This document shows positions 2,577-53,053 of a DNA stretch of 64,000 nucleotides, piece after piece. The stretch is taken from contig NZ_JACHKT010000003.1 of assembly GCF_014204325.1 (NCBI RefSeq), positions 1-64,000 on the forward strand, given 5' to 3'. Position 1 is the first letter of the stretch. Every line of letters begins with the position of its first letter. Origin of the DNA: Arcicella rosea (GTDB lineage Bacteria; Bacteroidota; Bacteroidia; Cytophagales; Spirosomataceae). The notes under the pieces were generated by a model, which did not search any database, was not told the DNA's origin, and saw nothing but the letters and a program-made list of their open reading frames with translations. A program made the translations under genes and the position numbers.

Positions 2577-2683
2577 TTTTTTGAGTGATTTTCTATGTGA
2601 TTAGTAATTAGAATTGGCTTTAAATGATATGAAATGTTTATTAAAAAATCTAATCACCAATCACTAATTTCCAATTACACTCT
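2577..2683. repeat. Intergenic inverted word-repeat arms (GTGATTA type)
   Basis: The left arm (about 2583-2618) reads GTGATTA, GTAATTA, GAATTGG. The right arm (about 2645-2680) reads the same words on the other strand (CTAATCACCAATCACTAATT). The spacer is filled from the start codon of the DUF1905 gene to the stop codon of the AsmA gene. Confidence 0.6.
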
Positions 2684-5600
2684 CTACACTGAATCTTTTT
2701 TAGTTGGTTTACTAAATTTGTTGAAAAGCCCATTAATAACACTTTTCTTTTGAGTTTCTAATAGTTTTTTAGCTTTATCAGCAGCTATTTTTTTAATACT
2801 ATCTGCCGTTGCTTTTGCTTTGGCTTCCATGGCTTCTTTGTCTAAAATTTGTGCAGGCAAGGCATCTTTTTTGATATTGAGTTGATCTAATATTTTATCT
2901 TTGTTCTCATTGATTTGTGCCTGTAAAGTAGCTTTTGCAACATCTTTTAAAGAATTGGCAGTACTACTTCCTTTAAAACCAAAAGCTGGATTCTTGAGTG
3001 TTCCTCCCAATTGTAAATCAAATTTTACTCTGTCACTTCCTTGAAGATTTTTACCAGTCCATTTTTGAAATACATTGCCAAAAGCTTCACCAATTTTACC
3101 AGAAGGTACATCCAAGAGTAAATTATAATCCATCGAACCTGTCAAACCATGGCGACCGCTGGCTGTAATTTTATAATCTTCAAATTTAATATCAAAAGGT
3201 TTTACACTAAATGTTCCATCTTTGATTTCAAATTGCATTAATAAATTACTCAATTTAGTTTCTTTCAATTTAGCAATTTTCGTTGTTTCTACCAATTTCT
3301 GAACCAAAGGATTACTTTCTGAAATAGTTGCTTGTAAAACTTTCATCAAGCCATCGCCAGTCAAGGAATTGATTTTTGGCATCATATCTTGTCCTAATTC
3401 TCCACCGATCTGTAATTTAGAAGTAACATTTCCTATTAAATATTGTGCTACTGGCATCAAGGATTTTACGATATTCAAATGTTGATAAGCCTGAGCGATT
3501 TCAATATTTTCAAGGTTTAAGGCGAAGTCAAATAAAGGATGGGCTAAATTGGAAGTATTGTAAGTTCCGCTCGTCGTGAATTTTCCTCCCAAAGATTGAA
3601 AAGCCACGTTTTGCATTTTCACTGCACCATTTCCTACCACTAAAGCACCTTTGATATTCTGCATTTTCATCTGACTATACAGTGCTTCTCCAATGTCCGA
3701 ATCCATCACTAATTCAATATTTTTTGGAATTTCAACTACTTGAAGTGGCTGTGCAGTTCCACCAGCAGTAGTAGTTTTCGGACTATCCGTCATCCACTCA
3801 TTTACGTTGAATTTGTTCGATTTTACATTCATTTTACCTTTTACAGTGCCGTTGTTCAAGGCATAATCCATGTAATTGGTAAATGTTCCATCTGCCACAA
3901 AATCACTTGTTCCTAAGAAACCTTTTGCATTGGTTACTTTGATGGCTGTTGGCGTAAAAGTCATGTCGGCTGAAGTAACTTTTACTCCTTGTGGATATTC
4001 TTTTGAAACAAATTCAAAATTCTGCATCGTTGCTTTTCCAGAAGTAGGCAAACTAGCATAACGTTTTGCCTTCACGTCCGACATTTTTCCTTTGGTTTCT
4101 ATATCTGCATCTATTTTTCCTTTCAAAGTCATGTCAGTCAAAGGATAGATTTTGGTCATTTTTGTTAAATCTATTTTTCCCTTTGCTTTAATATCCCAGT
4201 TGTAATTTTCGAAGTTTTCTATTACACCATTAGCCGTAAAAGGTTCGCCATCTAAAATCATTCTCATTTCAGTAATGGCTAAACGAGTCGAAGCTAAAGC
4301 GGCATTAGTATTTATTAAATTAGCCTTTACATTTAGGTCTTGAATAGGTTGAGGGAATTGGTCAGATTTAATGTATCCATTCACTAAACTCATTACAGCG
4401 TTCACCTGTGGGAAAGATTTTGTCAGTGAATCATAAGTGCCTTTTGCTTTTAAATCCATGCTGTAAAGTCCACGCATTTCTAAGCCTTTCATCGGAAAGA
4501 TTTGCCCTATTTGCTGTAAGTCAACTTTAGCCACAACATCTGCATCCACTTTTGATTTTCCCAAACCTTCTATTAAAGCACGTGCATTGATAGGATTTTT
4601 ACCCAAATTCATGTTGAATTTCTTGATGTTCAATACTGAATTATTCAGGTCGTTTGTGGTATTACTTGCTTTCAAATCAAGGTTAATTCCCGTAACTGCC
4701 GTTGGTAAATCAGGATATTGGAACATGGCATTTTCTACCAATAAATTAAAGGCATAAGTAGGAAATGAAGTAGCATTCATCGTTCCTTTTACAAAACCAT
4801 CAAATTGTACATTTCCATCAGCATCAACATCTTTGAATTTATCAGTATAGATATTTGGGACTAATGAAAGTAAGTTTTTAAAGGTATTTTCTGGCGATGA
4901 ATAAGTAATATCTAAAACAATACTTGAAGTATCGGGCATGGCGACTGAGCCATCAAAATTCAAGGTAAAATCGTTTATTTTCCATGAATTTTTAGCGAAG
5001 GAATACTTGTTTTTACTTTGGTCGATATTGATTTTCATATCAGCAGACAATGTTTTGTCGTGCAAATATTCTGTTCCTCCGTAGTTGATAGAAGCTTTTT
5101 CAACCTGAGTATTGGTCGTCAAATCATAGATTTCAGCACCAATATTTCCTGAACCTTCATGGGTAATATTTTGAAGTAACACAAAAGTGTTTTTCAGTCT
5201 ATCATCATAAGTAATTTGTCCGTTGGTCAATTTCCATGATTCAATTCCGATATTGAAATTACTTTTTGTTTTTGTCTCTTCTTGCTGAACTTGTAGCGAA
5301 TCCGACTTATAAATATCGTAATTGGCAGAGCCATCGGGCAATACTTTAACCAAGATTTTAGGGCTGTCAATTGCAATTGAGTTAATGGCAACTTTATCGC
5401 CAGAAATAATTGATTTTAAGTCGGCAGATAAAGAAAATACCTTCGCTTGTATCAACGTATCACTTGCAAATGGTGAATGTCCAACCACACCAAAGTCTGT
5501 TAAAGAAATGGTTAATGAAGGAAAATGCTTGAAAAAAGATAAATCAAAATCGTTATAGTAAACCTTTGCTTTTACTTTTTTCTGAATTTCCTCATTGACT

Positions 5601-5698
5601 TTTGCTTGAATCGTATCCTTAAAAAAGAAAGGCACTGCAAAAAGAACAACAGCCAATAAAGTAATAATCGAAATTAGAATGATGAATGCTTTTTTCAT
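2684..5698 (-). CDS. AsmA family membrane-anchored protein
   Basis: A 1004-aa protein with one N-terminal transmembrane helix (residues about 4-24) followed by a long beta-rich periplasmic region. It shows AsmA-type features: K-V-Y-Y-N-D-F-D-L-S-F-F near residues 45-56, repeated G-x-G-x-x-x-x-G-x-x strands, and an AsmA-like C-terminal domain with S-G-x-x-G-L-x-G-S-M-D-Y near residue 850. A Lys/Ala-rich, coiled-coil-like tail ends it. AsmA/TamB-type proteins form bridge-like grooves thought to carry phospholipids between the membranes of Gram-negative bacteria, and the length fits. It is probably monocistronic, as both flanking spacers are word-repeat inverted pairs. Confidence 0.87.
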   Translation of the reverse strand: MKKAFIILISIITLLAVVLFAVPFFFKDTIQAKVNEEIQKKVKAKVYYNDFDLSFFKHFPSLTISLTDFGVVGHSPFASDTLIQAKVFSLSADLKSIISGDKVAINSIAIDSPKILVKVLPDGSANYDIYKSDSLQVQQEETKTKSNFNIGIESWKLTNGQITYDDRLKNTFVLLQNITHEGSGNIGAEIYDLTTNTQVEKASINYGGTEYLHDKTLSADMKINIDQSKNKYSFAKNSWKINDFTLNFDGSVAMPDTSSIVLDITYSSPENTFKNLLSLVPNIYTDKFKDVDADGNVQFDGFVKGTMNATSFPTYAFNLLVENAMFQYPDLPTAVTGINLDLKASNTTNDLNNSVLNIKKFNMNLGKNPINARALIEGLGKSKVDADVVAKVDLQQIGQIFPMKGLEMRGLYSMDLKAKGTYDSLTKSFPQVNAVMSLVNGYIKSDQFPQPIQDLNVKANLINTNAALASTRLAITEMRMILDGEPFTANGVIENFENYNWDIKAKGKIDLTKMTKIYPLTDMTLKGKIDADIETKGKMSDVKAKRYASLPTSGKATMQNFEFVSKEYPQGVKVTSADMTFTPTAIKVTNAKGFLGTSDFVADGTFTNYMDYALNNGTVKGKMNVKSNKFNVNEWMTDSPKTTTAGGTAQPLQVVEIPKNIELVMDSDIGEALYSQMKMQNIKGALVVGNGAVKMQNVAFQSLGGKFTTSGTYNTSNLAHPLFDFALNLENIEIAQAYQHLNIVKSLMPVAQYLIGNVTSKLQIGGELGQDMMPKINSLTGDGLMKVLQATISESNPLVQKLVETTKIAKLKETKLSNLLMQFEIKDGTFSVKPFDIKFEDYKITASGRHGLTGSMDYNLLLDVPSGKIGEAFGNVFQKWTGKNLQGSDRVKFDLQLGGTLKNPAFGFKGSSTANSLKDVAKATLQAQINENKDKILDQLNIKKDALPAQILDKEAMEAKAKATADSIKKIAADKAKKLLETQKKSVINGLFNKFSKPTKKDSV

Positions 5699-5927
5699 GG
5701 TTTGGGGAGACTTTAGGATTTTAAGACTAAAAGACTTTAGGATTGACTGTAAGACTTACACTGACTTGAAGACTAGAGGACTTAGGGACTAGAAACATTA
5801 GATTATATAGATTTGAAGACTTTAGTATTAAGTTTCCAAATCCATAGACAAATCCTTAGCCCTTTTAATCATTTGTCCTTAATTTAGTCTTTTAATCTTA
5901 AAGTCTTACAGTCCTAAAGTCTTATCA
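5699..5927. repeat. Intergenic inverted word-repeat arms (8-nt GACTTTAG type)
   Basis: The left arm (about 5703-5792) is a run of octamer-phased words: GACTTTAG, GATTTTAA, GACTAAAA, GACTTTAG, GACTGTAA, GACTAGAG, GACTTAGG. The right arm (about 5850-5925) carries the same words on the opposite strand (CTAAAGTC, TTACAGTC, TTAAAGTC). The arms start at the AsmA start codon and stop at the gmhA stop codon. Confidence 0.7.
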
Positions 5928-6533
5928 TTAAATCACCAACTTTTCAATTAATAAAATCAAAATATGAATTACTTTTATGTGTACTTCTTGGATACGGTCG
6001 GCATAACCGAAATGTGGAACTCTGATTTCTACATCAGCTTGTCCAACTAATTTTCCACCGTCTTTCCCAGTAAGTAACACAATTTTCATGCCTTTGGCTT
6101 TAGCCACTTCGACTGCTTTGATAATATTAGCAGAATTTCCACTTGTAGAAATACCCAACAAAACATCTCCTTTACTTCCTAAACCTTCTACAAAACGAGA
6201 AAAAATATGGTCAAACCCATAATCGTTACTTACGCAAGAAATATGAGAAACATCTGAAATTGCAATGGCAGGCAACGAACGACGGTCGTCACGATAGCGA
6301 CCTGACAACTCTTCTGCAAAGTGCATCGCATCACAGTGGGAACCACCGTTACCACAAGAAATTATTTTGTTCCCAGAACGAATAGCCTCAGCCATTATTT
6401 GGGCAGCAGCTTGAATATCAGCAAGATTTTTTGGATTAGCAATAAAGTTTTGAAGTACTAATTGTGCTTCGTTGAGTTCTTGTGCAATAATATCAATCAC
6501 GAATTTTTCTATGTTTATTTTAATGTCAATCAA
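5928..6533 (-). CDS. gmhA: Phosphoheptose isomerase (D-sedoheptulose-7-phosphate isomerase)
   Basis: A 201-aa SIS-domain protein of normal GmhA length. It converts sedoheptulose 7-phosphate to D-glycero-D-manno-heptose 7-phosphate, the first step to the LPS inner-core heptose. [20 protein letters not shown] (61-80) is the phosphosugar-binding segment. H71, E75, Q182 and H190 match the spacing of the E. coli zinc/active-site set (H61, E65, Q172, H180). The STSGNS sugar-phosphate loop is also present. The second heptose-pathway enzyme is not in this window. The gene stands between word-repeat arms and the terminator of the TPM gene. Confidence 0.93.
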
Positions 6534-6569
6534 AATTACGAAACATTATTATAAATCTTGTAGCAAGGG

Positions 6570-6604
6570 CTGAAATAGAAAAGGCTTCGCCGAAACGAAG
6601 CCTT
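6570..6604 (-). terminator. Terminator of the lemA-TPM operon
   Basis: A 9-bp perfect stem, AAGGCTTCG (6581-6589) with CGAAGCCTT (6596-6604), and a 6-nt loop. An A-rich tract on its left becomes a U-tract for minus-strand transcripts ending at 6624. Confidence 0.65.
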
Positions 6605-6623
6605 CTTATATTCTTGATTATGC

Positions 6624-7421: not shown

Positions 7422-7460
7422 AAAAAAATCCCTTCCTTCACAGAAAAGGTTTGGACTTAT

Positions 7461-7895: not shown

Positions 7896-8100
7896 GTCTA
7901 TTGAGTGAATTAGTGAATTAGTGAATTGTGAATTAGTGATTTTTTTATTGTGTGATTTTTTTATTGAGTGATTGAGTGAGTTGTGATTGAGTGATTTTTT
8001 CAATGAATGATTTTATAAATATTAAATTCACAATTCACTAATTGATAACTCACAACTAAAAAAAAATCACTAATTCACTCAATCACTAACTCACTCAATA
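7896..8100. repeat. Intergenic inverted word-repeat arms (GTGAATTA/GTGATTGA type)
   Basis: The left arm (7896-8010) is a chain of 7-8 nt words (GTGAATTA, GTGAATT, GTGATTGA, GTGAGTT, GTGATT plus T-runs). The right arm (8026-8100) carries the same words on the other strand (AATCACTAATTCACTCAATC and similar). The array sits inside the lemA-TPM operon, and translation of one frame gives the false N-terminus of the 7461 ORF. Confidence 0.75.
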
Positions 8101-8147
8101 AAAAAGGCGAAAAGCGAAAATTTATCTTGTTTTCTGCTTTTCGCCTT
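8100..8147 (-). terminator. Hairpin terminator or attenuator behind lemA
   Basis: A 12-bp perfect stem, AAGGCGAAAAGC (8104-8115) with GCTTTTCGCCTT (8136-8147), a 20-nt loop, and six A residues at 8100-8105 that read as U on the minus strand. It lies directly downstream of lemA, so it may end or attenuate transcription before the TPM genes. Confidence 0.65.
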
Positions 8148-8166
8148 GTGCGATTTCATCGAAAAA

Positions 8167-8754: not shown

Positions 8755-8790
8755 AGTTTTAATTATTTAATGTGAATATGTGAAGTAATA

Positions 8791-8798
8791 CAAAGGTA
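8791..8798 (-). promoter_or_regulatory. Candidate -7 promoter element of lemA operon
   Basis: TACCTTTG on the minus strand matches the Bacteroidota sigma-ABfr TAnnTTTG consensus, 37 nt before the lemA start. No good -33 TTG lies at the ideal distance, so confidence is modest. Confidence 0.4.
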
Positions 8799-8914
8799 AA
8801 ATAATTATACCACTCTGTAAAACTGTTTCAAATGTAGATGTTTTTTCAACGCTTACACTACTTCTATGCTGAATATTTGTTTTTTGATTTTGAACGGTCA
8901 AAAACTCTTTTCAG

Positions 8915-25790: not shown

Positions 25791-25796
25791 TATTTA

Positions 25797-25912
25797 ATTT
25801 GAAGATTTGGAGATTTGAAAATTTGAAAATAATGTAGTGGATGCCTGATGTTATAATCTTTCCCCACAAGTACAATCTTCAAATTTTCAAATTACCAAAT
25901 TTTCAAATTAAG
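25797..25912. repeat. Intergenic inverted word-repeat arms (8-nt AGATTTGA type)
   Basis: The left arm (25797-25834) reads AAGATTTGG, AGATTTGA, AAATTTGA. The right arm (25872-25912) is the reverse complement vocabulary (AATCTTCAAATTTTCAAATT). The right arm runs through the rimO stop codon, so the spacer is filled from one gene to the other. Confidence 0.65.
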
Positions 25913-27435: not shown

Positions 27436-27481
27436 GCTTGTTAATTTTCAAATTAACATATCCTCAAATTTTCAAATTATT
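27436..27481. repeat. Word-repeat arm (AATTTGA type), one-sided
   Basis: TTAATTTTCAAATTAAC and CCTCAAATTTTCAAATTA are right-arm words of the family at 25797-25912. They end 4 nt before the start codon of the small gene at 27485. The matching left arm is not evident in 27219-27435, where I see no gene. Confidence 0.5.
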
Positions 27482-27700: not shown

Positions 27701-27779
27701 CTGTCGGCTTTGAGCTTTTTTCTTAATATAATGTTCAATAAAAAAAGCTCAAAGCTCACGGCTCAGAGCTTAAAAGCTA
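27699..27779. repeat. Intergenic inverted word-repeat arms (7-nt GCTNTGA type), terminator-like
   Basis: Left words: GCTGTCG, GCTTTGA, GCTTTTTT. Right arm, read on the minus strand: GCTTTTAA, GCTCTGA, GCCGTGA, GCTTTGA, GCTTTTTTT. The pair folds into a stem (CTTTGAGCTTTTTT with AAAAAAGCTCAAAG) that can terminate both convergent genes. It fills the spacer from stop codon to stop codon. Confidence 0.7.
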
Positions 27780-30193: not shown

Positions 30194-30221
30194 TGTTTTT
30201 GGGAAAAAAATTGTGTGGAAA

Positions 30222-30400
30222 TCGACTTTGGATAATTGTGATTGTTTTCAATTGTGATTGAGTGAATTGTGAATTAGTGATTGTTTTATAATTGTGATTG
30301 AGTGAGTTGTGAATTAATGATTGTTTTCAATTGTGGTTGATTATACTCAAATTTAAAATAATCACTAACTCACTAATTCACAACTCACTCAATCACTCAA
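30222..30400. repeat. Intergenic inverted word-repeat arms (GTGATTGA/GTGAATTA type)
   Basis: The left arm (30228-30345) contains TTGTGATTGAGTGAATTGTG and near copies at about 60-nt spacing. The right arm (30352-30400) is AATCACTAACTCACTAATTC and onward. The arms end exactly at the kdsA stop codon (30401). The vocabulary is the same as at 7896-8100 and around the four-helix-bundle gene at 34.4-34.9 kb. Confidence 0.75.
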
Positions 30401-34366: not shown

Positions 34367-34370
34367 TATT

Positions 34371-34417
34371 TAGTGAATGAGTGATTGGTGATTGAGTGAT
34401 TGACTTAATCACCAATC
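34371..34417 (+). repeat. GTGATTG word hairpin, left of the four-helix-bundle gene
   Basis: GATTGGTGATT (34383-34393) pairs perfectly with AATCACCAATC (34407-34417), 13-nt loop. The words GTGAATGA, GTGATTG, GTGATTGA repeat in it. It starts 5 nt after the oxidoreductase stop codon. Confidence 0.7.
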
Positions 34418-34434
34418 TTATTTTACGCCTTAAA

Positions 34435-34827
34435 ATGATGAATACTAACAATTATCTTCCAAAAGATGAGTTTGCTGAACTTATATTTGGACGCATAAAA
34501 GCATTTGGATTACGCTGTATGCCTTTATGTGATGACTTATTTTTAAAAACTGCTTCTGCTAAGAATATCGCCAGACAACTTATTCGTTCATCATCTTCTG
34601 CTGTTGCCAACTACAGAGCAGTAAGAAGGGCGAGGAGTAAAAATGAATTCTATGCAAAAATCAGCATAGTCATTGAAGAATTGGATGAAAGTATATTTTG
34701 GTTAGAATATTCCATAGATGCAAAGTTTTATGAAGATATAAAAGTTAGAAGTCTGATTAATGAAGGTTACGAAATTTTAAAAATCCTCGCTAAAGCCAGA
34801 AAAACAGTTAGCGTAAATAATAAATAG
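34435..34827 (+). CDS. Four-helix-bundle protein (S23 / IVS-type, TIGR02436-like)
   Basis: A 130-aa protein from the Met at 34435 (a second Met follows at once; the 13 residues before are translated spacer). The family pattern is clear: F-A-E-L-I-F-G-R-I-K-A-F-G near the start, then A-R-Q-L-I-R-S-S-S-S-A-V-A-N-Y-R-A-V-R-R-A-R-S-K-N-E-F-Y-A-K-I in two stretches, and V-I-E-E-L-D-E-S-I-F-W-L-E. Members lie in 23S rRNA intervening sequences and in dispersed genomic sites, and the fold is shared with the Avd protein of diversity-generating retroelements. The function is unknown. The gene sits between two word-repeat hairpins and splits a sugar-metabolism gene pair. Confidence 0.87.
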   Translation: MMNTNNYLPKDEFAELIFGRIKAFGLRCMPLCDDLFLKTASAKNIARQLIRSSSSAVANYRAVRRARSKNEFYAKISIVIEELDESIFWLEYSIDAKFYEDIKVRSLINEGYEILKILAKARKTVSVNNK

Positions 34828-34852
34828 TAGATAAAATTTGGTAAAGTTTTAA

Positions 34853-34911
34853 TGAGTTGTTGATTGAAATTTTAAAATCACTCAATCACAACTCACTCAA
34901 TCATTCAATAA
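34853..34911 (+). repeat. GTGATTG word hairpin, right of the four-helix-bundle gene
   Basis: TGAGTTGTTGATTGA (34853-34867) pairs with TCAATCACAACTCA (34882-34895) with one bulge. Further words (CTCAATCATTCAAT) run to 6 nt before the next start codon. The words match the left hairpin and can also pair with it across the gene. Confidence 0.7.
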
Positions 34912-34916
34912 ACACA

Positions 34917-35969
34917 ATGAAAACAATCAAAGGACCTGCTATATTTTTAGCACAATTTTTAGATAACGTTGCTCCTTTCAATACCCTTGATTCTATTACT
35001 TCTTGGGTAGCTGACTTAGGATATAAAGGAGTACAAATCCCTACTTGGGATGCTCGTGCAATTGATTTACAATTAGCCGCAGAATCAAAAACCTACTGTG
35101 ACGAATTGAAAGGTAAATTAGCTGATAAAGGTATCGAAATCACTGAACTTTCTACGCACTTACAAGGACAGTTGGTAGCAGTAAACCCTGCTTACGATGT
35201 AATGTTTGATGGTTTTGCTCCAGATTCAGTAAAAGGAAATCCTAAAGCTCGTACCGAATGGGCAGTGCAACAATTGAAGTATGCAGCAAAAGCGTCTCAA
35301 AACTTAGGTTTAAAAGCTCATGCTACTTTCTCTGGTGCTTTGATGTGGCATACGGTTTATCCTTGGCCACAACGCCCTGCGGGTTTGGTTGATCAAGGCT
35401 TTACAGAATTAGGAAACCGTTGGTTGCCAATTTTGGATGCTTTTGAAGACGTTGGCGTTGACCTTTGCTACGAAATTCACCCAGGCGAAGATTTACATGA
35501 TGGTGTTACTTTTGAAATGTTCTTAGAAAAAGTAGGTGGTCACAAACGTGCAAACTTGCTTTATGATCCATCGCACTTTGTATTGCAATGTTTAGATTAT
35601 TTACAATACATTGATTTCTATCACGAAAGAATCAAAATGTTCCACGTAAAAGATGCTGAATTTAATCCTACTGGAAAACAAGGTGTTTATGGTGGTTATC
35701 AATCATGGGTAAATCGTGCTGGACGCTTCCGTTCTTTGGGCGATGGACAAGTGGATTTTGGTTCTGTTTTCTCGAAATTAACACAATACGGCTACGATGG
35801 CTGGGCAGTGTTAGAATGGGAATGTGCTATCAAAGACCCTGTTCAAGGTGCAACAGAAGGAGCTCCATTTATTGATTCTCACATCATCCAAGCGACATCT
35901 AAAGTATTTGATGATTTTGCTGGCGGTGGTGCTGATATTGAATTGAATAAGAAGATTTTGGGAATTTAA
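34917..35969 (+). CDS. Sugar phosphate isomerase/epimerase (xylose isomerase-like TIM barrel)
   Basis: A 350-aa protein. I start at the Met at 34917 (MKTIKGPAIFLAQF); the longer frame reads the word repeats as SLNHNSLNHSI. The AP-endonuclease-2-like TIM barrel has metal-binding candidates in L-C-Y-E-I-H-P-G-E-D (Glu), L-L-Y-D-P-S-H-F (Asp, His), M-F-H-V-K-D-A-E (His) and A-V-L-E-W-E (Glu). The substrate is unknown. It probably works with the Gfo/Idh/MocA oxidoreductase upstream. Confidence 0.9.
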   Translation: MKTIKGPAIFLAQFLDNVAPFNTLDSITSWVADLGYKGVQIPTWDARAIDLQLAAESKTYCDELKGKLADKGIEITELSTHLQGQLVAVNPAYDVMFDGFAPDSVKGNPKARTEWAVQQLKYAAKASQNLGLKAHATFSGALMWHTVYPWPQRPAGLVDQGFTELGNRWLPILDAFEDVGVDLCYEIHPGEDLHDGVTFEMFLEKVGGHKRANLLYDPSHFVLQCLDYLQYIDFYHERIKMFHVKDAEFNPTGKQGVYGGYQSWVNRAGRFRSLGDGQVDFGSVFSKLTQYGYDGWAVLEWECAIKDPVQGATEGAPFIDSHIIQATSKVFDDFAGGGADIELNKKILGI

Positions 35970-36014
35970 TTCGATTTGGGATTGTGGATTTCGGATTTCT
36001 GAAATATAGATTTT
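35970..36014. repeat. Word-repeat left arm (7-nt GATTTSG type)
   Basis: GATTTGG, GATTGTG, GATTTCG, GATTTCT, starting 3 nt after the isomerase stop codon. The inverted partner is at 36611-36667, so this pair encloses about 600 bp holding a terminator and the REP-like cluster. Confidence 0.6.
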
Positions 36015-36022
36015 AGTAAAAG

Positions 36023-36054: not shown

Positions 36055-36137
36055 TGTTTATGCACAGTTTTTTTAATGACAACTTTCTGCATTACATAAG
36101 TACTAATATCGCATTGCTGAGGAGGCAAATACAGAAG

Positions 36138-36260
36138 CCCCACAGCCCTGCAAGGGCGGCATCCATCAACAATGGGTAACGCCCATTGAAGAAGGCGAAA
36201 ATGAAAACCCCACAGCCCTGTAAGGGCGGCATCCATCAACAATGGGTAACGCCCATTGAA
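36138..36260 (+). repeat. REP-like palindromic units, two direct copies
   Basis: Units 36138-36190 and 36208-36260 are 53 nt, 70 nt apart, and differ at one base. Each has hairpin 1 (AGCCCTGCAAGGGC), the link ATCCATCAA, and hairpin 2 (CAATGGG-TAACG-CCCATTG). They face the units at 36314-36525. Confidence 0.8.
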
Positions 36261-36313
36261 AAACGTGAACCATCATATTCACATGAACGTCTTCCATATC
36301 TCGTAATCATAAG

Positions 36314-36525
36314 CCACAGGGCGTTACCCTGTGCTATGGAATTTCGCCCTTTCAGGGCTGGGGTTCGTAGCTGGTAGGGTAGCGGTAGCACAAGGCTTTG
36401 CCATGTGTTGATAGATTTCGCCCTTTCAGGGCTGGGGTTCGTAGCTGGTAGGGTAGCGGTAGCACAAGGCTTTGCCATGTGTTGATAGATTTCGCCCTTT
36501 CAGGGCTGAGGTTCGTAGCTGGGAG
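36314..36525 (-). repeat. REP-like palindromic units, three inverted copies with a 74-bp tandem period
   Basis: On the minus strand the units read CCCCAGCCCTGAAAGGGCG, a link, and a variable second hairpin. The second-hairpin stems covary: CACAGGG/CCCTGTG here and CACAAGGC/GCCATGTG, against CAATGGG/CCCATTG in the left copies. TTTCGCCCTTTCAGGGCTGG recurs exactly 74 nt apart (36342, 36416, 36490). Confidence 0.8.
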
Positions 36526-36610
36526 TAATATATTTTTTATTTTTATAAAAAAATACTGTTTTAATTGTAAAAATTATAATATAATTTATGGATTTATTAT
36601 GATACATTTT

Positions 36611-36667
36611 GCTAATCGGATCATAAATCTTGATATATAAAATCCACATTCCAAAATCACAAATCCC
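36611..36667. repeat. Word-repeat right arm (7-nt GATTTSG type)
   Basis: Read on the minus strand: GGGATTTGTGATTTTGGAAT, GTGGATTTTA and so on, the words of 35970-36014. It ends directly at the ATG of the 36668 gene. The stretch 36526-36610 shows nothing but A/T-rich DNA. Confidence 0.6.
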
Positions 36668-37102
36668 ATGCGACTTTTCCAATCCGAATCCGAAATAGAA
36701 TCCTTAATCGAAAAATTCAATACTTGTACTTTGCCAGCTGAGGATTGGACACATGAAGCACATTTAGCGATGGGTCTTTGGTATTTGCGTCAATACAACC
36801 TTACGCAGGCGATGCACTTAGTCCGACAAAGAATTATCTTATTCAATAGTTCGGTGGGTGGTCCAATTAATTTTGAAAGAGGTTATCATGAAACACTTAC
36901 TTGGTTTTGGTTGAAAACAGTTGAGGCTTTTTTAGAGAGATTTGGGCTAGAAAAAGCATTACTTGAAACTTGTAATGCTTTTTTGAGTAGCGAATATGCC
37001 TTACGTGACAGAGCTTTGTTATTTTACCAAAAAGAAGAAGTAATGTCGTTGGAAGCACGGACATTTTTGATGATACCTACCAATACTTCCCGCCCTTTTT
37101 GA
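36668..37102 (+). CDS. Conserved hypothetical helical protein
   Basis: A 144-aa cytosolic protein, probably all-helical. The W-T-H-E-A-H-L-A-M-G-L-W-Y-L-R block and the later G-Y-H-E-T-L-T-W-F-W have conserved-looking His and Trp residues that could bind a metal or ligand. I recall similar hypothetical proteins with W-x-H-x-x-H in other phyla but no assigned function. Its last 26 bp overlap the convergent glycosyltransferase gene end. Confidence 0.68.
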   Translation: MRLFQSESEIESLIEKFNTCTLPAEDWTHEAHLAMGLWYLRQYNLTQAMHLVRQRIILFNSSVGGPINFERGYHETLTWFWLKTVEAFLERFGLEKALLETCNAFLSSEYALRDRALLFYQKEEVMSLEARTFLMIPTNTSRPF

Positions 37103-39902: not shown

Positions 39903-40034
39903 TTTAAGATGGTCATCAGCGGTCGGCTCTTGGCTTTCAGCTTTTTTTGATATTTTACATATTACTCATGGCATGATTCTAAGTCATGCCATGAGTTTTC
40001 AATCAATTTGTCAACTCAATTTTAATTCAACAGC
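39903..40034. repeat. Word-repeat arms (7-nt GCNNTCR type) enclosing a perfect palindrome
   Basis: Left words GTCATCA, GCGGTCG, GCTCTTG, GCTTTCA, GCTTTTTT (39908-39943). Right words, minus strand: GCTGTCG, GTCATCG, GCTGTCA, GCAATCA, running from 40020 into the 3' end of the next gene. Between them ACTCATGGCATGA (39964-39976), loop TTCTAAG, TCATGCCATGAGT (39984-39996), copy 3 of that palindrome family. Confidence 0.7.
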
Positions 40035-41267
40035 TTAACCCTGATTGCTGACAGCCGATGACCGACAGCTCTCAAAAGCTCTTTGATAATTTTTAATTAC
40101 CACATGAATATTTACTTCGTCACGGATGATTTGTCCAGAATTTAGTCCCATTTGGCGAGTTTTTGCTGGGTCAGACAAAAGTACGGCTAATTTCTTAAAT
40201 AAATCATCAGCATTACCATCCTCAAAAATAAAGCCGTTATAGCCATCTCTTACCAATTTTTTCTCTGTTCCATCTGCCACCGCACAAACGACAGGTTTAT
40301 CGAAACACATGGCGTCGTTGATTGACAAACCGCCCATTCCTGCCAAAACATACACCAGCGAAGCATTGAAGTATTGTCCGAGTTCGGTCATTTTATAAAC
40401 TCCACCCGTAAAAATCACTTGTTTTTCAATGCCCAAAGAAATGGCTTGCTGTTTGAGATTTTGTTCTTCTGGACCAGTACCAACAACTACTAATTCTGCC
40501 GTTGGGAATTGCACCAAAAGTTTACTGAAAACCTCAATCAGCATATCTACTCTTTTCCATTTTACCAATCTACCAACGTGTAAAAGTCGCAGTGGATTTT
40601 CGGGCAAAACAGTATTTACACCTTCAATTTTAGCTTTGTCTGCCAAAATCAAATCAGTATCTGGCGAATTGTAAATTACAAAGATTTTCTCTTTCGGAAC
40701 GCCATAACTGCCAAATACTTCGTAAGCTTCTTCGGTATAATCTACATGAGCATCTACCAAATTGAAAGCTCTTTTATACGAATATTTCAGTAAAGTATAT
40801 TTCAATTTAAACGCCAAACTGTCTGGTTTTAAATTGGTTTGCATCGTTTCAGACGCTACACCACCGTTGGCATAAAAATCAAGGGCTTCTTTGAATTTTG
40901 GGATATTGAATGGAATTTCCTTGAGTATCAATTTAATCCCCATACTTCGTATTTTCCAAAGTAACATCGGATTATAGACAAAAGCCAAGATATATGGCCA
41001 AATAGTAACGATTACATCTGGGCGTTCAGCTTCGATGGTTTCAATAAAGTTTTTGAAGAAAGGTTTGCCCCAAAGTGTTTTGTACTCTTCTAAGAAATGT
41101 ACTTTGAATTCAATGCCATCTAAGGTTTGATGTACACCCGAACCAACGGTTTTTCCACCACTTTTTGGAGCGATTACAACAATTTCTTGTCCTTCAATAC
41201 GATTCAAGCGATTGAGAACTAAGTTATAATAATGTGGCAAGCCACCAAAAGTAAATAATATTTTCAT
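40035..41267 (-). CDS. Glycosyltransferase family 4
   Basis: A 410-aa GT-B enzyme starting MKILFTFGGLPHYYNLVLN. The donor half has L-L-H-V-G-R-L-V-K-W-K-R, V-V-V-G-T-G-P-E-E and M-C-F-D-K-P-V-V-C-A-V-A-D-G-T-E-K in place of the more common G-x-P-V sequence, with D-G-Y-N-G-F. The last eleven residues (…CRSSAVSNQG) are encoded by the word-repeat arm that extends from the spacer, so the true family C-terminus may have been altered. Confidence 0.9.
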   Translation of the reverse strand: MKILFTFGGLPHYYNLVLNRLNRIEGQEIVVIAPKSGGKTVGSGVHQTLDGIEFKVHFLEEYKTLWGKPFFKNFIETIEAERPDVIVTIWPYILAFVYNPMLLWKIRSMGIKLILKEIPFNIPKFKEALDFYANGGVASETMQTNLKPDSLAFKLKYTLLKYSYKRAFNLVDAHVDYTEEAYEVFGSYGVPKEKIFVIYNSPDTDLILADKAKIEGVNTVLPENPLRLLHVGRLVKWKRVDMLIEVFSKLLVQFPTAELVVVGTGPEEQNLKQQAISLGIEKQVIFTGGVYKMTELGQYFNASLVYVLAGMGGLSINDAMCFDKPVVCAVADGTEKKLVRDGYNGFIFEDGNADDLFKKLAVLLSDPAKTRQMGLNSGQIIRDEVNIHVVIKNYQRAFESCRSSAVSNQG

Positions 41268-41269
41268 GT

Positions 41270-41304
41270 TTTTTTAGTGACTAGTCGTTGGTGATTAGTC
41301 TTTT
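41270..41304. repeat. Word-repeat arm (7-nt GTGATTA/GTCGTTG type), one-sided
   Basis: AGTGACTA, GTCGTTG, GTGATTA, GTCTTTTT immediately after the start codon of the GT4 gene (41267). A weak partner (CTATCCAATCACTTTTTTCA at about 41326) runs into the 3' end of the flippase gene. Confidence 0.5.
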
Positions 41305-41322
41305 TCTTGACTATATGAATAA

Positions 41323-43562: not shown

Positions 43563-43566
43563 ATAA

Positions 43567-44667: not shown

Positions 44668-44670
44668 ATA

Positions 44671-45375: not shown

Positions 45376-45381
45376 TTAAAA

Positions 45382-45411: not shown

Positions 45412-45439
45412 AGAGTATTAAAAAACTTCAAGCCCTAAT

Positions 45440-46651: not shown

Positions 46652-46674
46652 CAATGATTTGATATTTAAAGGTG

Positions 46675-46700
46675 CTATCTTGCTAGTAAGATAGTTTTTT
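46675..46700 (+). terminator. Terminator overlapping the lost C-terminal codons
   Basis: CTATCTT (46675-46681), loop GCTAGT, AAGATAG (46688-46694), then TTTTTT. The stem coincides with the last codons of the unshifted LamG-gene frame. Confidence 0.7.
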
Positions 46701-46727
46701 ATTGTAATATTTTTCCATCAATCACTA

Positions 46728-48044: not shown

Positions 48045-49795
48045 ATCGTCTTAGCTCGCTCTTATTTTTTACGGTGTTGTGCCTATGCAATACTGCTGTG
48101 AATTTTGCCCAAGTACGCCGTTCGTTAGGCCCACCAGTGAATCATCCAAGCTTTAATGAATACGCTCCTTCCATCAGTGCCAACAACAAAACCATGATTT
48201 TTGAAACCGATCGTGCTGGCGAAGGAAAATGGGAATTGTATTACACTACAAAAAATGAAAAAAATAGATGGACGCCACCAAAACCCATCGTGAATATCAA
48301 TAAAATCGGGAAGGACAATGACTTGATTGGTGGACCATCTATTAGCTACGATGGAAAAACGCTTTTCTTTTTTGCTTCTTTTGAAGGTGGACAAGGCGAT
48401 ATGGATATTTATCATTCTACTTGGAACGGCACAGATTGGTCAGAGCCAAAAACGTTTGATAATAATATCAATACCAAAGCTTACGAAGGTTTTCCTTCGG
48501 TTTCTGCTGATGGAAAATCGATGTATTTTATCCGTGATAATTTCTCGAAAAGAAAAGACAAAGCTTTGTGTTACACCATTTGGGTTTCAAAAAAACAAGA
48601 AGATGATACTTGGGGAGTAGCCGAAAAATTACCAGCACCCATCAATATGGATTGCGAGAAAGCTCCTAGAATTATGGCAGATAATCGTACGTTGATTTTT
48701 AGTTCTGTGAGAAAAGATGGAGTCGGTGGTTTTGATTTATATCAATCTTTTCAGGAAGATGATGGCTCTTGGAGTACTCCAATCAATCTTGAATACATCA
48801 ATACTGAAGAAGACGACCAATTTGCTTCTGTTTCGGCCGCTGGTGATTTAATGTATTATCATACTGCTGGCGATATTTATACCGTAACCATTCCTGATAA
48901 ATACCGAAAATATAAATTAGTAACCGTTGACGGAAAAGTAATTGATGCCATTACCAAACAACCAATTGCCATAAAATTGACTTCAAAAAGTACTAATCCA
49001 AAAGAAAGAGCCATCAATACTGTTGTAGATGCTAACGGTTTGTTTTCTATGATTTATAGAGTTGGAAGTAAGTATGATGTAACGACTTCGCCATTGGCAG
49101 ATTATTTGCCTTATCGTGGTAAAATGGACATGAGTACTGCCAAAGAAACGGATAATATTGAGAAAAATATTGAATTGATTCCAAAGAAATTAGTTTTCCA
49201 GTTTCAATTACTTGATAAAGACACGAAGGCAATTTTGAAAGACCCAAAAGTAAAAGTAATGGATGCTGAAACGAAACAATTACTAGAAGTAAAAGTGGAT
49301 AAAGACATTGCCAATGTTACGCTTGAAATTGGCAAGCTTTACAAATTTGCTGCCAATACTTTAGGCTATTCGTTTTTCTCTCGCTCATTCAAGCCTGATA
49401 CTGTGGATGCTTTTAAAGATAGATTGAAGAAAATACCTTTAGCGGTTTTGAAGAAAGATGTTGTTGTGCAATTACAAGATATTACTTTTGAAACTGGTAA
49501 AGCTGAATTAAAACCTGAATCTGGAGAAGAGTTAGACCGTTTGGTGGCTTTGTTGGATGGCAATAAAACGATAAAAGTAGAAATCTCAGCTCATACAGAT
49601 GATGTTGGAAATGATGATGCCAACTTGAAGCTTTCAGAAAAAAGAGCAAAGGCGGTGGTAGATTACTTAACGACCAAAGGCATTAAAGCCGACAGAATGA
49701 TTGCAAAAGGCTATGGCGAAACGCAACCACTTGTCCCTAATGATACTGATGAAAATAAAGCAAAAAATCGTAGAGTACAGTTTAAAATCAATTAG
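48041..49795 (+). CDS. OmpA family protein with PD40 beta-propeller repeats
   Basis: A 584-aa protein. I start at 48041, overlapping the upstream stop (ATGA), because MNRLSSLLFFTVLCLCNTAV is a signal peptide. The N-terminal half has PD40-type blades (E-Y-A-P-S-I-S-A-N-N-K-T-M-I-F-E-T-D-R, then G-G-P-S-I-S-Y-D-G-K-T-L-F-F). A carboxypeptidase-regulatory-like beta domain follows (about 300-390). The C-terminal OmpA domain (about 470-584) has S-A-H-T-D-D-V-G and L-S-E-K-R-A-K-A-V-V-D-Y-L, which bind peptidoglycan. It anchors the outer membrane; similar proteins accompany gliding/T9SS machinery. Confidence 0.92.
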   Translation: MNRLSSLLFFTVLCLCNTAVNFAQVRRSLGPPVNHPSFNEYAPSISANNKTMIFETDRAGEGKWELYYTTKNEKNRWTPPKPIVNINKIGKDNDLIGGPSISYDGKTLFFFASFEGGQGDMDIYHSTWNGTDWSEPKTFDNNINTKAYEGFPSVSADGKSMYFIRDNFSKRKDKALCYTIWVSKKQEDDTWGVAEKLPAPINMDCEKAPRIMADNRTLIFSSVRKDGVGGFDLYQSFQEDDGSWSTPINLEYINTEEDDQFASVSAAGDLMYYHTAGDIYTVTIPDKYRKYKLVTVDGKVIDAITKQPIAIKLTSKSTNPKERAINTVVDANGLFSMIYRVGSKYDVTTSPLADYLPYRGKMDMSTAKETDNIEKNIELIPKKLVFQFQLLDKDTKAILKDPKVKVMDAETKQLLEVKVDKDIANVTLEIGKLYKFAANTLGYSFFSRSFKPDTVDAFKDRLKKIPLAVLKKDVVVQLQDITFETGKAELKPESGEELDRLVALLDGNKTIKVEISAHTDDVGNDDANLKLSEKRAKAVVDYLTTKGIKADRMIAKGYGETQPLVPNDTDENKAKNRRVQFKIN

Positions 49796-49798
49796 GTT

Positions 49799-49842
49799 AA
49801 AAACAGAAAAGACTTCGCTGAAACGAAGTCTTTTCTGTTTTT
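49799..49842 (+). terminator. Terminator of the OmpA operon
   Basis: A 19-bp perfect stem (49799-49817 with 49824-49842; AAAAGACTTCG/CGAAGTCTTTT core), loop CTGAAA. It has A- and T-tracts, so it can work in both directions for the convergent gene at 49858. Confidence 0.93.
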
Positions 49843-49857
49843 AAATTTCTCTACAAA

Positions 49858-50313
49858 TTATTTCTTCCCGCCAAAATGATAGCCAACACCTAGCCAAGCT
49901 CTGAAAACGCCACTTGTTCCGTCATAATTCACATAGGGACTGAGTTCAAAATTGACACTTACTTTTGGTGCTTTCTCAAAAGGATAAGCACGCATTCCCA
50001 CACTTCCGAAATAACCTTTTACAATGTCTTGATTATCAATAATAGACGCCACAATTCCAAAGTTTACTCCACCGCCAGCATAAATAAAGGCATTTTTAGT
50101 ATAACCAAGATTCACCATCAAAGCGGGTTCTGTATTCAATGAAGCTGTAAATGAATTCATCTGAAAACGAAAATCCATCCAAACTACTTTAGTAGGATTG
50201 GTAGCAATCGACAATTGACTATTGAAAGGATAATAGCTAATCGCTTGAGCTTTCGTAGTATGGTTAATAAATTGGAAAGTAAGAATTAATGCAAGTAACT
50301 TAAGTAGTTTCAT
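49858..50313 (-). CDS. Small predicted outer-membrane beta-barrel protein
   Basis: A 151-aa exported protein: signal peptide about 1-22 (ending TKA), then short alternating strands (…WMDFRFQMNS…, …FIYAGGGVNFG…, …VNFELSPYVN…), ending in W-L-G-V-G-Y-H-F-G-G-K-K. The size fits an eight-stranded barrel. I do not recognise a family. It stands alone, convergent with the OmpA gene. Confidence 0.65.
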   Translation of the reverse strand: MKLLKLLALILTFQFINHTTKAQAISYYPFNSQLSIATNPTKVVWMDFRFQMNSFTASLNTEPALMVNLGYTKNAFIYAGGGVNFGIVASIIDNQDIVKGYFGSVGMRAYPFEKAPKVSVNFELSPYVNYDGTSGVFRAWLGVGYHFGGKK

Positions 50314-50464
50314 GAATTTGATTATTAGGTTTTATCGATTTGAGCAATTAGCTTTCGGCTTATTATTTTGTTATGATATTTTAATTGTTTACTTCTGAGA
50401 ACAACATCTCATAAACAATGTCATTTCATTTAAAGAGAATTTGTCGTTTGAAACTCCGCATTCT

Positions 50465-52012
50465 TCAGTATCCTAATTCATTCAAAGCGGCTTTTGCTTT
50501 ATTATCAATAGAATTTTTGTACTCGTGTTTTTTGTAAGAAATAGCTTTTTCAAAATAACTTTTGGCTTTTACTTTATCACCTTTTGCTTGGTAAATATAA
50601 CCTAATTGTAAAGCCGAACTAGCACCAAAAGAAACAATTTGCTGTGCTGATAAAATAATTGCACGTTCATAAAAAGGAATTGCTTGTAGAATATTGTTTG
50701 ACAATTGAAAAATTCTTCCTTTTCGGTAGTTAAATTCCATTTGGTCTTGAATTTGTTCAAAATTACTTTCAGAATACTTCTCCAGAATCATCAAAGCTTT
50801 ATCATAAAAACCGCCATCACAAGCCAAACGAGCTTTCATCAATACTTTTTGGCTAATCTGTTTTTTAGGATTTGATGCTAAAAAGTTATCTGCAAATTTA
50901 GTTGCAGCCTTGTCAGCTTCAACAATATTTTCGCCTTTCAATTTTACTTTTTCTAAAAAAGCTTTTCCTTTGGCATCTTCATTATTCAACCAGTAAGTTA
51001 AAAAGATTTTATAGTAAGTATCTTTTACAAAGTTAAAACCTTTGTAATGCGTCAAAAAAGTTTGAAAGCCTTTTGAAGCCAATTGATACTGTCCTTTCTG
51101 TAATAAAATATCTGCTTTCAGATATTCAAGAAATGGAAAAGATAAATACTCAGTACTTTCTGGGCGATTTTCAAGAATATCGAAAGCAATTTCACTTTTT
51201 CCTTCTTTCATAAAAGTAGTTACGCCGAAAAACTGGAAGAGTAAATTATCTTGATGTTGGTGAATGAATTGCTGAAATTCATTGAGTTTTTTAGGATTAA
51301 ATTTCAGGATGTAAGCATGAACGACATACTCTAAAAATTGTGCTTCTTCTTTAAAAACACTGTCTTTATGAATCACATTTTGTAGTTCATTTAAACCGAG
51401 TTTGATATTCCCTTTTAGTCCAATTAGTTTAATAATCCATTGATAATTTTCTGGTGTTGAACCAATTAAGATATGCAATAAACCAAGTGATTTTTGATTT
51501 GGTAAAAAATTAGGAAATTCTTTAGCATTGGCATCCAAGAGCTTGTAGGCTTTGATAATTTCCCAACTTCCTTTGGTTTCATGTCCGAATTTTAATTTTA
51601 CAAAGGCTGAATGCAAATGAAGTTCTGCCAATAAAAAACGGAAGTAAGGCGATTTTTTATCAAGATTTTCAATCAAATCCATGCGTTCGTCTTGATGATT
51701 GATAAACTTTTCATAGAGCGTTTTATCTTCCGTAATCATCAATTCTATTAAATCGGCATAACTGTTTAGATAAGTATTTACGCCATTTACCGATTTATCA
51801 TGGGCTAAAATACTTCTTCCACTGGCAATTTTCATTTTCAAGATTTCAGAATATGCTTTTTGCATGGCGTTATTCATTTCGAAATCTGAGGCTTTTCCAG
51901 AAGTATTTAGCAACAAAAAAATCATCCAAAAAGTAAGGAGTATTTTCTTTGAAGCGTATTTTCTCAACCAAAGCTGAATCTTTTCAATATGGTTTGGAGG
52001 ATTTTGTGTCAT
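50465..52012 (-). CDS. TPR-containing exported protein
   Basis: A 515-aa protein with an N-terminal hydrophobic segment (about 23-40) acting as signal or anchor and a long helical body. The C-terminal region has clear TPR units (…EFNYRKGRIFQLSNNILQAI…, and A-L-Q-L-G-Y-I-Y-Q-A-K-G-D-K-V-K-A-K-S-Y-F-E-K-A). The central part (about 70-330) is less regular. It is probably a periplasmic or membrane-bound scaffold. No enzymatic motif is visible. It is a single gene. Confidence 0.75.
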   Translation of the reverse strand: MTQNPPNHIEKIQLWLRKYASKKILLTFWMIFLLLNTSGKASDFEMNNAMQKAYSEILKMKIASGRSILAHDKSVNGVNTYLNSYADLIELMITEDKTLYEKFINHQDERMDLIENLDKKSPYFRFLLAELHLHSAFVKLKFGHETKGSWEIIKAYKLLDANAKEFPNFLPNQKSLGLLHILIGSTPENYQWIIKLIGLKGNIKLGLNELQNVIHKDSVFKEEAQFLEYVVHAYILKFNPKKLNEFQQFIHQHQDNLLFQFFGVTTFMKEGKSEIAFDILENRPESTEYLSFPFLEYLKADILLQKGQYQLASKGFQTFLTHYKGFNFVKDTYYKIFLTYWLNNEDAKGKAFLEKVKLKGENIVEADKAATKFADNFLASNPKKQISQKVLMKARLACDGGFYDKALMILEKYSESNFEQIQDQMEFNYRKGRIFQLSNNILQAIPFYERAIILSAQQIVSFGASSALQLGYIYQAKGDKVKAKSYFEKAISYKKHEYKNSIDNKAKAALNELGY

Positions 52013-52107
52013 TGGATGCGTTGATTATTGTACAAACGGAAATTATACAATCTTATTTAAGAAAATTGTTGGCTAGCAGACTAATCCTAAACGATTTTAT
52101 CAACATC

Positions 52108-52142
52108 AAAAAAGCCCATAACGTTGAGGTTACGGGCTTTTT
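52108..52142. terminator. Terminator between the TPR and zinc-ribbon genes
   Basis: AAAAAGCCC-A-TAAC (52109-52122), loop GTTGAG, GTTA-C-GGGCTTTTT (52129-52142). One A/C mismatch in a 13-bp stem. The A-tract on the left gives the U-tract for the minus-strand gene ending at 52163. Confidence 0.82.
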
Positions 52143-52162
52143 GTCTTGCAAACCAAAAGGGC

Positions 52163-52921
52163 TTATTTCTTAGAGATGAAAACGATGTCTTCAACGTCTG
52201 CCAAAATACGACCACAGTGTTCGCAAACAATGATTCTTTTCTTGTCTTTGATGTCAGCCTGACGTTGTGGTGGAACTGCACTAAAACAACCTCCACAAGC
52301 ACCACGTTTTACTAAAACAACTGCTAAACCGTTTGGATAATTTCCACGCAATTTATCGTAAGGGCGTAATAAACGTTCTTCCACAAATTTCACAGCCTTA
52401 TCACGGTTGTTCATTAATTTTTGTTCGTCTTCTTCGCTTTCAGCAATCAAAACATTTAATTCTTTCTTTTTTGCATCAAGGTCTTTTTTACGAGTATTCA
52501 AACGAGTTTCTGTTTCAGAAACGTCGTCTTTTTTATTCAAAATCTTGAATTCAAATTCACGAGTACGTTTGTCAGCCAATTCCATTTCAAGTTGTTGCAA
52601 TTCAATTTCTTTAGAGATTGCATCATATTCACGGTTATTGCGGACATTCATTTGTTGGTCTTTATACTTATTTACCAACTTTTCAGCTTCTTTCTTCGCA
52701 TTACGGTTTTTTGTAATGTCTTCTTCCAAAATAGCGATTTCTTTGTTGAATTTGCTAATACGGGTTTCAATACCAGCAACTTCATCTTCCAAATCACGTA
52801 CTTCTTCGGGTAAATCGCCTCGCATCTTTTTGATGCCATCCAAGGCTGAATCTATGTTTTGAAGCTTCAAAAGAGCTTCTAATTTCTGAGCAATGGTTGT
52901 TTCGGTTGCTACTGCTGCCAT
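52163..52921 (-). CDS. Coiled-coil protein with C-terminal C4 zinc ribbon
   Basis: A 252-aa cytosolic protein. Residues about 10-195 form a long antiparallel coiled coil (heptad-rich, Glu/Lys/Leu). The C-terminal zinc ribbon has R-G-A-C-G-G-C-F-S and I-V-C-E-H-C-G-R-I-L (C-x2-C…C-x2-C). The architecture matches the CT398/HP0958 family of zinc-ribbon coiled-coil proteins, some of which bind nucleic acid. It lies just downstream of the Nif3-like gene on the same strand, a pairing common in Bacteroidota. Confidence 0.88.
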   Translation of the reverse strand: MAAVATETTIAQKLEALLKLQNIDSALDGIKKMRGDLPEEVRDLEDEVAGIETRISKFNKEIAILEEDITKNRNAKKEAEKLVNKYKDQQMNVRNNREYDAISKEIELQQLEMELADKRTREFEFKILNKKDDVSETETRLNTRKKDLDAKKKELNVLIAESEEDEQKLMNNRDKAVKFVEERLLRPYDKLRGNYPNGLAVVLVKRGACGGCFSAVPPQRQADIKDKKRIIVCEHCGRILADVEDIVFISKK

Positions 52922-52965
52922 TGGTTTTATTCGGTTTTATCTGTGTAACCGCTATCGGTATTAAG

Positions 52966-53045
52966 TTATTAGTTGAGATGGACTAATTATCCTGCATTTT
53001 CAAGGAAAGATAATTAATCAATTTGAACCAATCACGAATCACTGA
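52966..53045. repeat. Word-repeat arms (7-nt GTGATTC/GTTATCA type)
   Basis: Right-arm words on the minus strand: GTTATCA, GTGATTC, GTGATTG, GTTCAAA (53008-53050). A weaker left arm (GTTATTA, GTTGAGA) is at 52966-52980. It separates the Nif3-like and zinc-ribbon genes. Confidence 0.45.
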
Positions 53046-53053
53046 TAACAAAA

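Follow-up and report, generated by a model that had tools for sequence, protein, structure and literature searches.

What fills the gaps between neighbouring genes at the start of contig 3 of the Arcicella rosea draft genome (GCF_014204325.1, 5.31 Mb) is the question raised by this locus; in the 64,000 nt analysed here (bases 1-64000, G+C content 34.6%; referred to as the window) several intergenic spacers consist of short tandem words on one strand that are mirrored as an inverted arm at the other end of the spacer, and one such pair of arms encloses a gene for a four helix bundle protein, the "intervening sequence protein" (IVP; PF05635/TIGR02436). The word-built spacers are probably copies of mobile elements lacking a transposase, which are kin to the intervening sequences (IVS) of ribosomal RNA (rRNA), are analogous to repetitive extragenic palindromic (REP) sequences and their RAYT proteins, and fold out of the messenger RNA (mRNA). 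A word is defined here as a tandem unit of 7 or 8 nt and an arm as a word array flanking a gene or a loop; G000 is the genome of the window, G001-G007 are its seven congeners, and L numbers denote single fetched loci. Pairing and period of the loci in the window were each compared with 500 dinucleotide shuffles.

The IVP gene of the window (34435..34827, + strand) encodes 130 amino acids (aa) from its ATG, with an in-frame GTG at 34396; the product matches PF05635 at 35.9 bits (cut-off 33.8) and TIGR02436 at 56.8 bits (cut-off 24). The left arm (34367..34434, +) begins directly after the upstream stop codon and contains GTGAATGA, GTGATTGG and GTGATTGA words, for which Tandem Repeats Finder (TRF) reports a period of 8; the right arm region (34828..34916, +) contains TCACTCAA words and reaches the likely ATG of the downstream gene at 34917. 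The arms pair across the gene (34367-34434 with 34828-34925; score 28, p<0.002 from 500 shuffles) and their word is the commonest of the window. An initial annotation had suspected that the spacers were linked to the four helix bundle gene at 34.4 kb, which is borne out by the family assignment and by the arms around the gene itself; this most informative pair was absent from its list of loci. The genome carries five IVP genes, and in 5/5 the arms pair beyond 500 shuffles; the arm types of the other four are GAGCTTT, GTGATTAG, GACTTTAG and GAGTTTAT, and three of those four genes lie between what we take to be, by eye from the translations, sdhA and sdhB, hisH and hisA, and argG and argC. Words from IVP arms are also reused in spacers of the window that have no IVP gene, namely GACTTTAG at 5699, GCTTTGA at 27701 and, weakly, CATAAACTC at 56489.

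IVP genes enclosed by word arms are found in the genome of the window, at many loci of the genus and in other groups. Four helix bundle genes of this family are present in 76 of the 81 genomes sampled from the family Spirosomataceae; from a wider set of named genomes 80 IVP loci were retained out of at least 586, of which 78 have a clear open reading frame (ORF) and 76 have both flanks, two short-flanked loci being dropped. Of the 152 flanks of these 76 loci, 99 have their best lag at 7, 19 at 14, 11 at 8 and 23 at another value; the mean autocorrelation stands well above shuffles at lags 7 and 14, and remaining lags are near shuffles. When the left arm is compared with the reverse complement of the right arm, the median score is 19 within a locus vs 11 for mismatched loci; the own-locus score exceeds the 95th percentile of mismatched pairs in 40/76 loci and the 99th in 13/76, and is the best of its row in 26/76. 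Nine genomes from other groups, reached via nine of the 80 named loci, supplied 30 further loci, six without an ORF by the motif described below and 24 scored; 12/24 pair beyond 200 shuffles and the best lag is 7, 8 or 14 in 38/48 flanks, with at least 8 of the 24 rows repeating loci already counted and two of the 12 (L319, L332) pairing in stretches unlike words. The titles of these genomes name Gloeocapsopsis, Thiohalocapsa, Treponema, Gracilibacteria and Hydrogenedentota, together with metagenome-assembled genomes (MAGs) labelled Thiobacillus, Methanophagales, Clostridia and Chlorobiota, labels that are possibly wrong by binning. Three IVP matches occur in tandem within about 3 kb at L071 (G007, contig 171; contig positions 3951, 5416 and 6675). 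A four helix bundle gene of Flavobacterium columnare, located between the genes for guanylate kinase and nicotinate adenylyltransferase, is listed as belonging to a phage region in PMC5524665; under the reading proposed here it may instead represent an IVP element inserted at an operon junction.

The placement of the elements between genes was measured on 102 IVP ORFs, 78 from named genomes and 24 from the genus, the latter obtained from 52 listed matches by demanding an ORF of 85-180 aa with an N-E-G/A motif; the IVP of the window has no such motif and was tested separately, outside this set. Both neighbours are on the same strand as the IVP ORF in 86 cases, are not in 9, and at least one is uncalled in 7. 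An arm pair could be measured in 74 of the 86 co-directional loci; its median start is at -2 nt relative to the end of the preceding stop codon, and 6 nt separate its end from the ATG that follows; the arms thus span stop to start, and the element class with spacer-precise boundaries that the initial annotation had postulated stands. The upstream stop is TAG in 48/86, and a G recurs at +7, +14, +21 and +28 of the G of the stop in 35, 33, 35 and 28 of the 48; most of these loci can therefore be read as arrays whose first unit is the stop codon. Unbroken heptad runs after TAG number five in 14/48, six in 7/48 and none in 13/48, five being the modal run of two or more. A single site, presumably fadB|fadA by sequence, contributes 21 of the 82 arm-bearing loci, so common ancestry accounts for part of the stop-codon register. 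The neighbours are otherwise diverse (40 distinct sites in the 86 loci), and one insertion site is reused by IVP elements across different genera. RNA folding, computed for 82 of the 86 loci (four were too long or short-flanked), is predicted to draw the stop and start codons nearer to each other; the median path from stop to start is 15.5 steps, rises to 30 when the arms are shuffled and would be 496 nt along the linear sequence; in 41/82 loci the real path is shorter than in all four shuffles.

Orthologous sites in the genus are found both empty and filled. At sdhA|sdhB in the eight congeneric genomes, G002 and G006 are empty with a TAATG overlap of stop and start; G000, G003 and G007 carry an IVP gene of type a with GTGATTAG arms; G001 and G005 carry type b with GGATTTAG arms; and G004 has a gene-less hairpin of TTAGCGA words, 121 nt including the stop codon. 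Two of the five IVP copies at this site (G005, G007) are broken. ATAAATA stands on either side of the G001 element, and a flanking duplication is imperfect or missing in the other congeners. The junction between a GFO_IDH_MocA and an AP_endonuc_2 gene has an IVP gene with arms in G000, G001 and G005 and other genes in G003, G004, G006 and G007, with a one-sided arm remnant visible by eye in G003 and G007; no adjacent copies of the two genes were found in G002. At the junction that carries the IVP element in the genome of the window, three congeners (L078, L079, L080) have small gene pairs that by eye resemble toxin-antitoxin pairs of the DUF433/DUF5615 type, and this junction thus seems to receive small elements of several kinds. 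Among spacers that lack an IVP gene, in L083 and L084, from two congeners, the genes flanking the 39903 hairpin have a 13-nt overlap, and the 2577 spacer is roughly 51 and 29 nt long and wordless in two congeners, its ends there being placed by tblastn. Word turnover at a single place also occurs: the spacer orthologous to 7896 pairs in 8/8 congeners (p<=0.004 each; period p between <0.002 and 0.078), and by eye its words fall into four types or more. In its G003 copy (L085) one arm has about 14 near-perfect CTATAAGT units and the right arm is far shorter, which indicates that arms can expand one-sidedly. The hisH|hisA junction is uninformative as an empty-site test, since the genes were not found adjacent in congeners; the same applies to 5699-5927 and 30194-30400, and solo hairpins may mark rearrangement points.

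Sequence comparison further indicates that the words track the IVP protein more than the site, and the same word is seen to accompany an IVP across sites. In Flavobacterium and its kin one junction is occupied by two IVP clades, about 42% identical, whose words differ: that of L125 and L131 is of TGTATAA type, and that of L136, L137, L142, L144 and others is of GTATTAAG type; L130, at a different junction, has an IVP 81-86% identical to those of L125/L131 and shares their word. Over the 82 arm-bearing loci (20/102 were left out with an arm score <12 or short flanks) and with same-site near-duplicates removed, a word class is shared between different sites in 10/23 pairs with IVP identity >=0.6 and in 36/1108 with identity <0.5; pairs at the same site with different IVPs share it in 6/46. 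On an IVP tree from which 13/82 loci in singleton word classes were excluded and on which each site was represented once (22 rows), 10 changes of word class are counted vs a mean of 14.3 and a minimum of 11 in 500 shuffles. A query with GACTTTAG arms finds at least 43 further matches at about 23 or more places in its own genome besides its own, and array matches in G001 only (at least 2) among 40 candidates scored per genome in the seven congeners. This word is therefore a dispersed family in its own right, contrary to the view of the initial annotation that no single transposon family had been copied around; the words accordingly form several families, each marked by a word of its own, instead of being invented locus by locus by one process.

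Spacers were also surveyed irrespective of IVP genes, with gaps of 50-600 bp between ORFs called by a simple ATG-ORF caller without annotation and with z>2 demanded for both pairing and 7/8-periodicity. In the genome of the window (the window plus 400 kb; 464 kb) 17/256 spacers pass vs 0/5,120 shuffles, with period 7 in 9/17 and period 8 in 8/17; the common phase with locus-specific words described in the initial annotation is supported. In 20 genomes of the family 2/30,750 shuffles pass, and chance AT-rich sequence is ruled out by these counts. For the 20 genomes together with the window, hairpin spacers occupy 30/716 co-directional, 15/154 convergent and 1/195 divergent gaps; the scarcity in divergent gaps is expected if hairpins are tolerated after stop codons and not over promoters, and convergent hairpin spacers may serve as terminators. 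A recount with fresh shuffles gave 41 hairpin spacers where 46 had been counted before, a shift of the size seen between runs that arises because z rests on 30-40 shuffles; one of the 41 adjoins an IVP ORF, that of the window itself, and 40/41 are without IVP. Pooled by IVP number, 6/416 spacers pass in the 10 genomes with <=3 IVPs and 36/609 in the 10 with >=5; an earlier, smaller dose test on 10 genomes looked cleaner and is not relied on.

It is proposed that a full element would consist of a left arm of 7-8 nt G-containing words, the IVP gene, and, on its right-hand side, the reverse complement of the left arm; it would insert where the stop codon of a gene meets the start codon of its neighbour, mainly within operons. 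Many copies would be gene-less, having lost or never had an IVP gene, and would remain as solo hairpins that resemble non-autonomous relatives. In the polycistronic mRNA the arms would pair and loop out the IVP gene, a ribosome ending the first gene would meet the start of the second close by, and the insertion would be tolerated; the element may persist since the stem would re-join the reading of the operon. By analogy with RAYT proteins and REPs, the IVP protein may recognise its own heptad words and mobilise or maintain the family. Three sequences were found in the PDB, of which 2gsc and 2rld are relatives with five chains per entry and the third is a designed protein; the five chains together with the modal run of five heptads lead to the guess that one heptad word is bound per IVP subunit.

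Several results weigh against this explanation. The element encodes no known nuclease or transposase, no transposition event has been observed, and target duplications are convincing in G001 only; G002 has nine GTGATTAG-type matches despite its empty sdhA|sdhB site. Among the named loci 36/76 stay under the 95th percentile of mismatched arm pairs, and an arm pair could not be measured at 12/86 co-directional loci. When each site is represented by a single locus, the excess of TAG falls from p=3e-5 to 0.025, although the register is kept (18 TAG loci, 39/131 Gs in phase, 11-21 in the other phases); hairpin spacers at large have TAG in 18 of 60 stops (p=0.35) and no register. The pairs in the word-sharing test are non-independent, close proteins stemming from close taxa. 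Other points favour a rival account in which these are ordinary intergenic hairpins, produced by slippage and template switching and kept as terminators or mRNA processing sites, with IVP genes as guests: hairpin spacers without IVP are common (40/41), convergent gaps are enriched in them, the 7896 spacer is a hairpin in 8/8 genomes, with differing words, and in none of them is it long enough to hold an IVP gene, and hairpin density shows no significant rank correlation with IVP number over the 20 family genomes (Spearman 0.34, p=0.14), G077, G055, G083 and G066 carrying 5-10 IVPs and zero hairpins in 80-kb samples. This account is nevertheless considered unlikely, as words track the IVP protein across different sites, the empty sdhA|sdhB sites offer a guest no hairpin, and the arms begin at the stop codon and finish just before the start.

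A regulatory device, with heptads as binding sites of a translational regulator near start codons and the IVP as a beneficial rather than selfish regulator, would follow the role that MacGregor proposed for TAACTGA repeats, the sets of which are reported to be mostly upstream of start codons, with the largest category ending 1 nt before (PMC4679880). The right arms have the same place and orientation as these sets, TAACTGA itself occurs in the right arm of L050, and elements of different genera share an insertion site; the diversity of neighbours, the orthologous sites that are empty in congeners and the broken copies (2/5 at sdhA|sdhB) make the device improbable, more so than guests in ordinary hairpins. 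Writing of the heptads by an Avd-like IVP with a reverse transcriptase acting in trans, as in diversity-generating retroelements, is suggested by the described homology of IVP and Avd (PMC10053308) and by the match of L030 to the Avd model at 41.2 bits, which is under the cut-off of 80; RVT_1 has no match in the genome of the window (99.99% complete), where this candidate was rejected, or in 4/7 other congeners, some of them incomplete, and such an origin is very improbable. Least credible of all are classical REP/RAYT elements driven by Y1 transposases: Y1_Tnp matches exist in 8/8 congeneric genomes (47 in total, 6 in the genome of the window), but no heptad word arms stand beside the nine Y1_Tnp loci examined of the 20 fetched, where nearby repeats, if any, are of other kinds such as GC-rich palindromes, and the repeats beside the Y1_Tnp (RAYT-like) gene on contig 22 (L108) match a separate block at 36.1-36.5 kb of the window. 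Mobile elements without a transposase remain the favoured explanation.

The nearest known kind of element is the rRNA intervening sequence with an S23/IVP ORF, and the nearest known repeats are the TAACTGA heptamers. A 428-nt intervening sequence in 23S rRNA with such an ORF is described as a horizontally acquired selfish element (PMC4990558); it shares with the present elements the PF05635 protein, a size of a few hundred nt and an ORF inside an inserted RNA segment, and the ORF is borne in a paired stem, which in the present case is computed from pairing and folding with not every locus passing. It differs in that the elements described here are located at stop-start junctions of protein operons and not in rRNA helices (86/102 IVP ORFs between co-directional ORFs, 23S genes being outside this check), have phased heptad words as arms, and have many ORF-less copies. 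REP/REPIN sequences with RAYT (TnpA-REP) are likewise dispersed intergenic inverted repeats; a genome holds several families of them, each apparently paired with a protein of its own, and the repeat is specific to the associated protein, IVP taking the place of RAYT; however, REPs are palindromes of 20-40 bp, whereas the units here are 7-8 nt, in tandem and tied to stop and start codons. The TAACTGA heptamers of Beggiatoaceae, Cyanobacteria and Bacteroidetes are 7-nt intergenic direct repeats that often end before start codons and have related heptamers mixed in, but consist of one word mainly on one strand, with one indirect repeat and no IVP link in the main text of PMC4679880, where "four helix", "S23" and "intervening" have no match. 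The Avd protein of diversity-generating retroelements is a homologous four helix bundle (PMC10053308), but its model cut-off is not reached by the present proteins.

A literature search of limited coverage returned no title or abstract opening linking IVP genes with heptad arms; heptamer arrays published without a cause and IVP genes for which no role was found in print are here tied together, and the role offered comprises word arms specific to a protein, an insertion site set by translation signals, and an insertion hidden in mRNA structure. If true, this would be a new element class in bacteria and would account for part of the hairpin-filled spacers; fragmented rRNA would be one case of a wider system. 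A bolder form is put forward tentatively and is held to be less probable than not, although better placed than any of the rivals above: an unrecognised transposase-less class in several phyla, in which a ring-forming four helix bundle protein would read its own heptads, one per subunit, on RNA or single-stranded DNA, would extend or copy the arrays in register with the UAG stop, and would render the insertion harmless by folding stop and start together in the mRNA, TAACTGA-like arrays being solo arms and the rRNA IVS a special case.

Within the window, the initial annotation had listed nine two-sided loci of phased words in inverted arms, of which seven are clear, the one at 2577 is weak and the one at 52966 fails; among the three one-sided arms it named, those at 27436 and 41270 find no support and the one at 56489 keeps a weak period. 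IVP-less hairpins in co-directional gaps are located at 5699..5927 (GACTTTAG words; pairing p<0.002, period p=0.004), at 7896..8166 (GTGATTGA/GTGAATTA words, both p<0.002), where the bordering genes look like lemA and a TPM-domain gene, and at 30194..30400 (GTGATTGA words; pairing p<0.002, period p=0.05), which as a query finds 86 further matches in its own genome, its own reverse strand included. The hairpin at 25791..25907 (AATTTGAA words, both p<0.002) fills a convergent gap, and that at 27701..27779 (GCTTTGA/GCTCAAA words, both p<0.002) follows a 71-codon ORF and precedes a gene on the opposite strand; the arm at 27436 was rejected as its partner, there being no pairing across the ORF (p=0.92). 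For the weak hairpin at 2577..2683 (GTGATTAG words) pairing has p=0.012 and period p=0.020; no strand is assigned to any of these hairpins or to that at 39903..40060. At 52922-53053 (pairing p=0.83, period p=0.23; 500 shuffles) and for the one-sided arm at 41268-41322 (pairing p=0.26, period p=0.22) a hairpin is unsupported, and at 56441-56543 the period alone is weakly present (p=0.038; pairing p=0.97). The IVP-less hairpin at 39903..40060 (pairing p<0.002, period p=0.028) has its right arm inside the gene at 40035-41267, at the 3' end of the coding sequence, an indication that word arrays can alter the C-terminus of a protein.

One further hairpin is split by a REP-type block; its left arm (35961..36020, +, GATTTGGGATTGTGGATTTCGG words) pairs with its right arm (36601..36668, +) at a score of 20 (p<0.002), the pairing test alone having been applied. 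At the gathering threshold none of the Rfam families matches the word spacers. The block that splits the hairpin, at 36100-36522, consists of separate GC-rich palindromic repeats of TTTCAGGGCTGGGG type, for which TRF gives a 74-bp unit in 2.5 copies; within it, 36315-36359 matches Acido-Lenti-1 RNA (RF01687) at 37.1 bits vs a threshold of 37.

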